Positions 16,784 to 31,041 of a DNA stretch of 31,312 nt are shown here, piece by piece. The number at the start of each line of letters is the position of its first letter. The stretch's first letter is position 1. Origin of the DNA: a virus; the IMG/VR virus record IMGVR_UViG_3300025112_000103, positions 1 to 31,312 of that record, one strand, 5' to 3'. Under the pieces are notes generated by a model that saw only the letters and a program-made list of their open reading frames with translations, searched no databases and was not told the origin of the DNA. Position numbers and translations under genes: made by a program.

Positions 16784-16799
16784 CATCCCTGGTCTACTA

Positions 16800-19608: not shown

Positions 19609-19955
19609 GTGATATTAAGGATCGTTACACTCGTCGTGGTGAGTATAAATAGTGTGTTCTAAGCCACGAGCGTCCGCATCTTACAAGTGGTAATTTGCGG
19701 GGAGACACCCATTAGCACTAATTGCTAGGTTGCAAACTAGCAGGGGACAAAGGATATTAGTGTTGTGTTTAATATTGTATTAGATCTATCGCCTGAGGCA
19801 AGAGATAGAAAGAAGCTACATTACTTGGGTCTGACTCAACACGTTCCTTCTAGAGGATGCGAGACAGAGCAGTAAGAGAGTTTCTTCGACAAGCCTCCCC
19901 ATTAATATCGCTAGAAGTCGCAAGTTCCATCCCCGCTAAAGGCTTTGCTAGGCTA
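19609..19955 (+). other. Gene-free stretch, possibly structured RNA
   Basis: No supported gene. Several inverted repeats could fold on the plus strand: TCGTGG/CCACGA (19633-19668), CCGCA/TGCGG (19675-19701), GCTAG/CTAGC (19726-19743) and TCTATC/GATAGA around GCC-TGA-GGC (19787-19812). No tRNA, tmRNA, RNase P or SRP signature was recognised. Confidence 0.4.
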
Positions 19956-20310: not shown

Positions 20311-20532
20311 ATGACTATCATCACACAACTTAGGTGCCAAGGGTGCCAAGACACTAACCCAGATGGGCTCCGTCCTGTCCGACTCGTCGAGAAGATTAGC
20401 ACAGGCGAGATCAAGGCCATGTGTCCGACATGCTTTGACTTTCTCATCAGGGTCAGCGACACGCTCGACTACACCGATGACGGCGTCTTCGCTCCAGAAT
20501 TTCGAGTTTCACCTCTTGACAATCCGAGATAA
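20311..20532 (+). CDS. Small zinc-ribbon-like protein
   Basis: 73 residues with CQGCQD near residue 9 and CPTCFD near residue 38: two C-x2-C pairs. No family recognised. Co-transcribed from P7 with no Shine-Dalgarno site. Its last codons contain the -35 box of P8. Confidence 0.7.
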   Translation: MTIITQLRCQGCQDTNPDGLRPVRLVEKISTGEIKAMCPTCFDFLIRVSDTLDYTDDGVFAPEFRVSPLDNPR

Positions 20533-21647: not shown

Positions 21648-22007
21648 ATGAAAACAATATTTCTAGATATCGACGGAACTATATTCTACCAATCCGACCG
21701 CTGCGACGAGGTCTATAGAACCCAGCCTGGGCTAATAAAGGGCTCAGCTAAAAAGTGTTGGCAGTGGCATCAAAAAGGCTATAATATAATCCTTACTACA
21801 GGAAGGCCTGAATCCTCTAGGAAATGGTGTGAACAAGCTCTAGCTCATCATAATATTGTGTATGATCAACTTATTATGAGTTTAAAGCCTTGGCCTCGTT
21901 ATTTAATAAATAACGACCGATGGCGACCGTCGGATCAACGGGATGATCTCACCGCTTTTGCAAATACAATCCCCACAAATCATGGCATAAGTGATTTAGA
22001 CATCTAG
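21648..22007 (+). CDS. HAD-family hydrolase
   Basis: 119 residues. FLDIDGTI holds the catalytic Asp7 and Asp9 (motif DxDGT); ILTTGRPESSRKW (48-60) is the motif II region; YLINNDRW (85-92) provides a late acidic residue in the motif IV region. The protein is a compact, cap-less HAD phosphatase of a type common in phages (IILTTGR-x-ES-x-R, YDQL-x-M). Substrate unknown; nucleotide or polynucleotide 3'-phosphate is possible. ATG 21648 begins at the catalytic strand. No Shine-Dalgarno site. R5 starts at its stop. Confidence 0.85.
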   Translation: MKTIFLDIDGTIFYQSDRCDEVYRTQPGLIKGSAKKCWQWHQKGYNIILTTGRPESSRKWCEQALAHHNIVYDQLIMSLKPWPRYLINNDRWRPSDQRDDLTAFANTIPTNHGISDLDI

Positions 22008-22070
22008 GCTTAGGCCCCTTCGGGGCCGGGGCGAAATCCCTAAGTCCCTACACACCAACACCTTATGAGC
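22007..22070 (+). repeat. Stem-loop element R5
   Basis: GGCTTAGG (22007-22014) / CCTAAGTC (22039-22046) around GGCCCC-TTC-GGGGCC, then the conserved tail. Nearly identical to R4 over 60 bp. Confidence 0.9.
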
Positions 22071-22094
22071 CATAAAAACTTCAAAAAAACATGA
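22065..22094 (+). CDS. Possible short peptide after R5
   Basis: Nine codons, MSHKNFKKT. Begins with the same ATGAGC as the other R elements but diverges at once. Confidence 0.15.
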   Translation: MSHKNFKKT

Positions 22095-22103
22095 AACCGT
22101 GGC

Positions 22104-22131
22104 TTGACAGACCCTAAAATTAGTGTATGAT
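22104..22131 (+). promoter_or_regulatory. Promoter P9, upstream of a tRNA-like RNA
   Basis: TTGACA, 16-base spacer GACCCTAAAATTAGTG, TATGAT (22126-22131), six bases ATACAG, then G22138, the first base of the acceptor stem of the RNA. The spacing equals that of the leaderless protein cassettes. Confidence 0.85.
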
Positions 22132-22137
22132 ATACAG

Positions 22138-22245
22138 GGCGCTGATATTGGCTTTGCTGTGCATTACGACGATTCCCGCGACCGTTTCGTAGCGGTGTTG
22201 AAGGGATGAGGCATAGTAGGGGGTTCAAATCCCCCCAGCGTCACC
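22138..22245 (+). ncRNA. 108-nt tmRNA-like RNA (RNA-1)
   Basis: Acceptor stem GGCGCTG (22138-22144) pairs with CAGCGTC (22236-22242) over 7 bp with one G.U at 2-71; discriminator A and CC follow (CCA not fully encoded). T arm GGGGG-TTCAAAT-CCCCC (22219-22235) has a canonical loop. The D region reads GATATTGG without a stem, like tmRNA (GATxxTGG). An 8-bp helix TGCTGTGC (22155-22162) / GCATAGTA (22211-22218) sits where tmRNA has P2. Only 48 nt remain inside, with small stems TCCC/GGGA and ACCG/CGGT; tmRNAs are usually 230-400 nt. No anticodon arm is visible, so this is not an ordinary tRNA. G3.U70, the alanine identity pair, is absent. The fold is read by eye. Confidence 0.65.
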
Positions 22246-22260
22246 TTTTCCCCAAAACTA

Positions 22261-22458
22261 ATGAAAAAAGCACGATACACCCTAAGCGTAGAGTATGACA
22301 ACGGAGATTTGCTTCGTCAGCCCTACCTCACCCAGGCCAGAGCCTATCGGATCCTAAAAGCCTACGAGGACAAGGGTTGGATCTACCGCCCGATCGGCTG
22401 GAAGCCCCTTCGCATCACTCGATGGAAGCTCTCCACAGGTTGGCAAGAAACCGAATAA
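22261..22458 (+). CDS. Unknown 65-aa basic protein
   Basis: Starts MKKARYTLSVEYDNGDLLRQ; beta-rich with many Trp, Tyr and Arg. No family recognised. It lies 15 nt after the tmRNA-like RNA with no terminator between, so P9 probably transcribes both. No Shine-Dalgarno site. Confidence 0.65.
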   Translation: MKKARYTLSVEYDNGDLLRQPYLTQARAYRILKAYEDKGWIYRPIGWKPLRITRWKLSTGWQETE

Positions 22459-22464
22459 TAGGGC

Positions 22465-22492
22465 TTGACAGACCCCGAAATTACTGTATAAT
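22465..22492 (+). promoter_or_regulatory. Leaderless promoter P10
   Basis: TTGACA, 16-base spacer GACCCCGAAATTACTG, perfect TATAAT (22487-22492), AGAAGC, ATG 22499. It heads the longest operon of the block (five genes). Confidence 0.9.
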
Positions 22493-22498
22493 AGAAGC

Positions 22499-22792
22499 AT
22501 GAATGAACGCCAAGAACACGGCCCTCTGGGGCACCAAGAACTCCGAGAAATCCAAGAACAACACATGAAGCTCGTCAACATGGCGAACGAGTTTGACTCT
22601 TTCTTTATCCACTACCTATTCGGTTGGATGGGTGTCGAGCGACACAAGGACATGGCAGAGTGCGCTCGCGCCTATCTTAATGACCAATACGGAGTACGCG
22701 ACGTTCCTCGGCGGGACGAGGGTCGCGCCCTTCTCGCTAAATTCGACGAGGAAAACAACCTGTCGGAGAAGTCGGTGGACGTAATAAAGTGA
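22499..22792 (+). CDS. Unknown 97-aa acidic protein
   Basis: Starts MNERQEHGPLGHQELREIQE; helical, with FFIHYLFGWMGVERHKDMAE in the middle. No family recognised. Start set by P10. Its stop overlaps the next start (GTGA). Confidence 0.7.
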   Translation: MNERQEHGPLGHQELREIQEQHMKLVNMANEFDSFFIHYLFGWMGVERHKDMAECARAYLNDQYGVRDVPRRDEGRALLAKFDEENNLSEKSVDVIK

Positions 22793-29358: not shown

Positions 29359-29386
29359 ATTATAGACTATTTTTCGAGTCTGTCAA
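29359..29386 (-). promoter_or_regulatory. Promoter P12 for the minus-strand operon
   Basis: TTGACA (29386-29381), 16-base spacer GACTCGAAAAATAGTC, perfect TATAAT (29364-29359). Same family as P1-P11 but with a leader of about 52 nt. Confidence 0.9.
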
Positions 29387-30840: not shown

Positions 30841-30914
30841 TGGTAGATCGTGTAGGAATCGAACCTACTTCAAACAGATTAGAAGTCCATTGGCCTAAAT
30901 CCATAGGACGATCC
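30841..30914 (-). tRNA. tRNA-Arg (anticodon UCU)
   Basis: Acceptor GGATCGT/ACGATCT with A73 and encoded CCA; D arm CCTA-TGGATT-TAGG; anticodon loop CTTCTAA, giving UCU (reads AGA); T arm GTAGG-TTCGATT-CCTAC. The anticodon stem has two G.U pairs. The D stem follows the acceptor directly, so bases 8 and 9 appear to be missing. Confidence 0.85.
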
Positions 30915-31041
30915 ACAAGAGCCGTTTTACTTCATTCTACTCAGGAAGGATAGTATGAAATGGAAAGCAAGGAAGGTAACGCTCCTTCTTCTTCGGGACC
31001 AAAACCCGACGTAATAGCTTCTATACTACTCGCTCAAAAGT

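Follow-up and report, generated by a model that had tools for sequence, protein, structure and literature searches.

In bacteria, tmRNA is the RNA by which stalled ribosomes are rescued. Whole tmRNAs are known from phages, and so is, in one case among the published accounts drawn on here, a tmRNA consisting of the tRNA-like domain (TLD) only. That case is the mycobacteriophage DS6A, which is also the single TLD-only phage example named in the published database. Two accounts (PMC4131195, PMC11915505), both citing Mao et al. 2009, attribute a TLD-only tmRNA to DS6A and describe strong inhibition of tmRNA by a similar molecule, chargeable or not, perhaps through titration of SmpB; according to the same accounts, the inhibition of endogenous tmRNA was reported for the similar molecule in E. 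coli. Going by these accounts, the TLD-only phage tmRNA is already known as a kind from DS6A, a precedent on which the initial annotation of the RNA discussed here was silent.

The window analyzed here is the whole 31,312-nt stretch of IMG/VR record IMGVR_UViG_3300025112_000103, a 31-kb phage fragment with a T4-type terminase and portal, whose closest terminase relatives are about 33% identical. It contains a compact RNA, RNA-1 (22138-22245, plus strand), that resembles a tmRNA reduced to its TLD. When RNA-1 is compared with the mycobacteriophage DS6A molecule by its published description, the differences are a promoter with its predicted +1 on G1, a G2:U71 pair in place of G3:U70, an apical part of 48 nt, and a contig that holds another TLD-only RNA. 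Other features of the window include 2 tRNA genes missed by ARAGORN, one at 30964-31035 (minus strand; 43 bits, TTG anticodon loop, unusual T loop) and one at 30844-30914 (minus strand; 28 bits, TCT), as well as a Pistol ribozyme that passes the Rfam cut-off and lies in an inter-cassette gap (19629-19707, plus strand). A repeat consisting of the hairpin GACTTAGG...CCTAAGTC followed by YTACACACCAACACCTTATGAGC lies between cassettes near 16795, 17833, 18832, 19954, and 22005, and no exact copy of it was found in IMG/VR.

Sequence and fold of RNA-1

RNA-1 is placed from G1 to the CC after A73, and it is supported by the match to the Rfam tmRNA model RF00023, the minimum free energy (MFE) fold, and shuffled controls. 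Its 7-bp acceptor stem, with one G-U pair, joins GGCGCTG (22138-22144) to CAGCGTC (22236-22242), and the 3′ segment (22236-22245) ends with A73 and CC at 22243-22245, after which comes a T, so the CCA is incompletely encoded. The D region, ATATTGGCTT (22145-22154), aligns with tmRNA positions 8-18 in RF00023 and includes ATATTGG, with the GG present and no stem. An 8-bp P2-like helix with 2 G-U pairs follows (22155-22162 paired with 22211-22218), enclosing the apical part (22163-22210) that replaces the mRNA-like and pseudoknot regions, and a 5-bp T arm with the loop TTCAAAT occupies 22219-22235. Unconstrained folding of 22138-22247 with RNAfold gave an MFE structure (−42.3 kcal/mol, z −2.25) with the same acceptor, P2-like, and T-arm helices, and 2 short inner helices are predicted in the apical part. 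No pseudoknot is recognizable, as judged by length alone. The initial annotation had described a 7-bp acceptor stem, a canonical T arm, a stem-less D region, an 8-bp P2-like helix, and 48 remaining nucleotides, and all of these elements lie where it had placed them.

The acceptor, the stem-less D region with its GG, and the T arm are the features of a TLD, and the D stem and anticodon arm of a tRNA are missing, with a 48-nt loop in their place. Like bacterial tmRNA (ssrA, RF00023), RNA-1 combines an acceptor stem, a stem-less D region with GG, a P2-like helix, and a T arm in an end-to-end match to the model, but it is about 105 nt long rather than about 350 and lacks the mRNA-like domain with its tag, the pseudoknots, GGNTTCGAC, and a full CCA. 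It also departs from canonical ssrA in scoring below the model cut-off and in having G2:U71 and C3:G70 as acceptor pairs, without the alanine identity pair G3:U70. The tag region is likewise lost in the mitochondrial tmRNAs that lack an mRNA-like domain (RF02544), but mitochondrial tmRNA genes, unlike RNA-1, are usually permuted (PMC11915505), and RF02544 does not match RNA-1.

Model scores and chance controls

The covariance search suggested in the initial annotation aligned RF00023 with RNA-1 end to end (model positions 1-374, with most of the middle deleted) at 35.4 bits, below the gathering cut-off of 47, with an E value of 1.3e-12 in a 601-base search. The tRNA model RF00005 gave 19.7 bits and covered 22194-22243 only. 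The sole RF02544 match in the window (18 bits) lies elsewhere, the permuted tmRNA model RF04321 had no match in 21900-22500 at E values up to 10, and RNA-1 is missed by ARAGORN and by Rfam when the gathering cut-off is applied.

The RF00023 score by itself is indecisive, because ordinary phage tRNAs in other records obtain up to 34.2 bits with this model. The 3 such tRNAs that were checked score 32-34 bits with RF00023 but 65-73 bits with RF00005, and it is this contrast between the tmRNA and tRNA models, rather than any single score, that argues for RNA-1 being of the tmRNA type. Bit score alone was in any case dropped as proof once compact RF00023 hits at 27-34 bits had been traced to ordinary tRNAs or to the acceptor half of permuted tmRNAs. 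An intron-bearing tRNA was also considered for RNA-1 and ruled out by the missing D stem, the 48-nt loop, and the poor tRNA score. In dinucleotide shuffles of the whole window, the configuration of acceptor, T arm, and an A..GG D region, within a length of 85-160 nt, appeared in 0 of 200; when the D-region condition was removed, acceptor plus T arm appeared in 9 of the 200. Taking the RF00023 alignment, the fold, and the contrast with RF00005 and RF02544 together, the tRNA-like domain of tmRNA without its mRNA-like and pseudoknot parts, as originally proposed, is the best match in sequence and structure.

A low model score, a lost identity pair, and an incomplete CCA could also describe a decayed tmRNA gene that persists as a relic, or an aberrant, functionless tRNA, in a phage that has 2 weak tRNA genes besides. 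This explanation appears improbable given that all 3 helices are intact and that a promoter matching 11 of 12 consensus bases is placed exactly at G1.

Promoter, predicted start point, and the downstream ORF

The promoter, P9 (22104-22131, plus strand), consists of TTGACA (22104-22109) and TATGAT (22126-22131) separated by 16 nt, the spacing of its sister cassettes. G1 of RNA-1 is the 7th base after the −10 hexamer, which is the usual start distance for sigma-70. In 7 sister promoters of the same family with 16-nt spacers, this 7th base is the A of an ATG; in an eighth, the ATG comes one base later, and the leaders of 2 further members (at 20516, and at 29386 on the minus strand) are longer. 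Because the spacing equals that of the ATG cassettes, +1 is predicted on G1, and we regard this as a sound prediction from sequence; the initial proposal that P9 has the spacing of the leaderless cassettes is borne out by the 7 sisters. No such clear promoter was seen among the upstream bases read for other TLD-only RNAs.

In Nanoarchaeum equitans, promoters are known from which transcription begins directly at the first tRNA base (PMC10100707). As with the leaderless tRNAs of that organism, the RNA-1 promoter seems set for a start at the first base of the fold, without an RNase P cut. The N. equitans case differs in involving archaeal promoters, genuine tRNAs, and measured 5′ triphosphates, compared with a single phage RNA and a predicted start here (PMC10100707).

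A 65-aa ORF (22261-22458, plus strand) begins 15 nt past RNA-1, with no promoter of its own seen and no family match, and RNA-1 appears from the sequence to share a transcript with it, a point that counts against reading RNA-1 as a decoy. The main rival to that reading builds on this arrangement: RNA-1 would be a cis-acting 5′ leader of the ORF, serving as a tRNA-like protective cap or as a processing site that releases a short-leader message. The absence of a promoter between the 2 features fits a leader, as does the direct driving of an ORF by each sister promoter, but the RNA-1 fold is specific to tmRNA, unlike a generic hairpin, and the second RNA of this contig and other TLD-only RNAs sit elsewhere, for example, in a tRNA array or between genes. 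We therefore consider a leader function unlikely.

A second TLD-only RNA in the window

The second RNA, RNA-2 (28918-28807, minus strand), was absent from the initial annotation and is the more canonical of the two. It scored 46.4 bits (E value 3.5e-17) in the RF00023 search of the whole contig, better than RNA-1 and just under the cut-off, and its identification is supported by its fold. RNA-2 is 112 nt in total and has the acceptor GGGGGTG/CACCTCC with G3:U70, the tmRNA motif GGATTCGA, a 9-bp P2, and an encoded CCA; its T arm is one base shorter than usual. RNA-2 is flanked by a 126-aa ORF and a small ORF, and a P9-family promoter matching 12 of 12 consensus bases (TTGACA-16-TATAAT, 29359-29386, minus strand) is located upstream of the 126-aa ORF and RNA-2.

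The apical parts of RNA-1 (22163-22210) and RNA-2 both contain a CCC/GGG inner helix and a hairpin, with 6 nt before the GGG, and the apical frames of both end in LKG(F) and a stop. Based on the shared apical helix and frame ends, common descent of the 2 RNAs is possible.

Open frames that end within the apical parts (...HYDDSRDRFVAVLKG and a stop in RNA-1, ...VKDQPDKLRLQLKGF and a stop in RNA-2) bring up another explanation, in which RNA-1 is a miniature tmRNA with retained ribosome-rescue activity that uses a short apical tag or, in the way suggested for mitochondrial tmRNA, no tag at all. Mitochondrial tmRNAs with no tag frame do persist along with SmpB (PMC11915505). In RNA-1 and RNA-2, however, no frame has an ALAA-like tag end, the apical frames are short enough to occur by chance, other TLD-only RNAs have no comparable frame, and RNA-1 lacks G3:U70. 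A tag encoded by the apical frames is accordingly a minor possibility as judged from the sequences, and retained rescue activity in general seems quite unlikely.

TLD-only tmRNAs in other phages

No orthologue of RNA-1 was found by IMG/VR pattern scans for TLD-only forms, by IMG/VR scans for the repeated cassette element or the promoter, by blastn against phages and plasmids, or in the records of relatives of gp88 and of the HAD gene. Among the matches listed from a pattern scan of genome contigs, no compact one had a full acceptor stem in tmRNA-like form. The result of the scan for GGNTTCGA forms was excluded from the analysis.

Pattern scans of IMG/VR phages, together with searches of the records so reached, revealed 5 further lineages of TLD-only tmRNA. 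L300 (10069-10156) and L303 (4831-4918) each have an 88-nt form in a tRNA array, both with 68.4 bits to RF00023; L312 (1501-1582, minus strand) has one of 82 nt with 72.4 bits, and L313 (1501-1579) one of 79 nt with 50.7 bits that was absent from a later cmscan. The syntenic L256 (9949-10027) and L251 (2643-2759, minus strand) carry forms of 79 nt and 117 nt with 37.6 and 33.7 bits, respectively, and L332 (1501-1598) carries one of 98 nt with 37.6 bits. Some of these RNAs score above the Rfam cut-off, and no permuted tmRNA match was found at the TLD-only sites of these records. A gene for SmpB was not found in 5 of the TLD-only records, all of which are fragments.

A hand-made table of 7 representatives, comprising RNA-1, RNA-2, and one RNA per further lineage, was used to compare pairing. 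Each of the 7 forms all 12 pairs of the acceptor and T stem, two-sided changes occur at acceptor pairs 3, 4, and 5 and at all 5 T-stem pairs, and G3:U70 is present in every representative except RNA-1. In free folds of the L312, L313, and L332 RNAs, the acceptor helix forms and the T arm does not, a constrained run left this unchanged, and their T arms are taken from the model alignment only. These pairing changes support the TLD-only class, as read from the aligned sequences, rather than orthologues of RNA-1. Of the 3 stems in which compensatory changes had been anticipated, the acceptor and T stems are therefore backed at the level of the class, and the P2 of RNA-1 is without covariation support because no orthologue was found.

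Several other structures were encountered in these searches. Upstream of their TLD-only tmRNAs, L251 (2759-2810, minus strand) and L256 (9832-9948, plus strand) have the common motif GGGAATACAC.GTAAGCTT.GTGTTGAAAACAA in a hairpin that has no Rfam match. Permuted tmRNA genes (RF04321, some RF01850) occur near positions 1500-1950 of L314, L319, L334, L315, L320, and L340, contigs that are classed as viral, and full-length tmRNA genes of 407-409 nt are found in the records behind L083 and L084, which are relatives by a HAD-type protein.

A possible decoy against trans-translation

The decoy mechanism suggested for the molecule similar to the DS6A RNA is, by analogy, the simplest for both RNA-1 and RNA-2. 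From the sequence, fold, model match, class-level covariation, and promoter spacing, we infer that RNA-1 would be expressed with the predicted ends and would counter host trans-translation as a decoy whose probable target is SmpB, a reading to which we give somewhat better than even chances. A strong sigma-70-type promoter would start the RNA at the first acceptor base, and no 5′ cut would be needed because this base is the predicted start. Folded as a TLD, RNA-1 could then occupy the SmpB of the host, possibly along with EF-Tu or the stalled ribosome, with SmpB binding proposed from the fold only. It would compete with host tmRNA and inhibit, or at least damp, trans-translation during infection, and it is expected to compete instead of rescuing because it has no recognized tag and no pseudoknots. 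Against this reading is the RF00023 score, which falls short of the curated cut-off and exceeds the best tRNA scores (34.2 bits) only slightly. The missing GGNTTCGAC, G3:U70, and complete CCA of RNA-1 also weigh against it, as does the P2 helix unsupported by covariation.

Although alanine identity in Drosophila mitochondria resides in G2-U71 combined with G3-C70 (PMC6451123), charging of RNA-1 by a bacterial AlaRS is doubtful because of its G2:U71 and C3:G70 pairs, and a standard AlaRS would probably leave it uncharged. RNA-2, with G3:U70 and CCA, could be the chargeable version.

The alanine and GGNTTCGAC features, in which RNA-1 deviates from tmRNA, could instead indicate a decoy for a host defense or toxin that attacks tRNA-like folds rather than for SmpB. 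Phage tRNAs that counter tRNA-targeting defense offer a general precedent, but RNA-1 has no anticodon arm, and its tmRNA-type D region and companion RNA-2 point to the tmRNA pathway, leaving a defense target very unlikely.

The co-occurrence of RNA-1 with RNA-2 raises the more speculative idea, which we put forward only tentatively, of a two-part phage attack on ribosome rescue that combines a chargeable RNA-2 with a leaderless RNA-1 without the alanine identity pair, the TLD-only tmRNA being a recurrent anti-rescue weapon overlooked because gene finders miss it. Current annotation with ARAGORN and the Rfam cut-off does overlook some TLD-only genes. Because the TLD-only RNAs occur naturally both with the alanine pair and lacking it, they also lend themselves to tests of TLD recognition by SmpB and the ribosome. 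The occurrence of TLD-only tmRNAs in several unrelated phages, with a single contig carrying 2 of them, would make the blocking or diverting of ribosome rescue look like a recurring strategy among phages.
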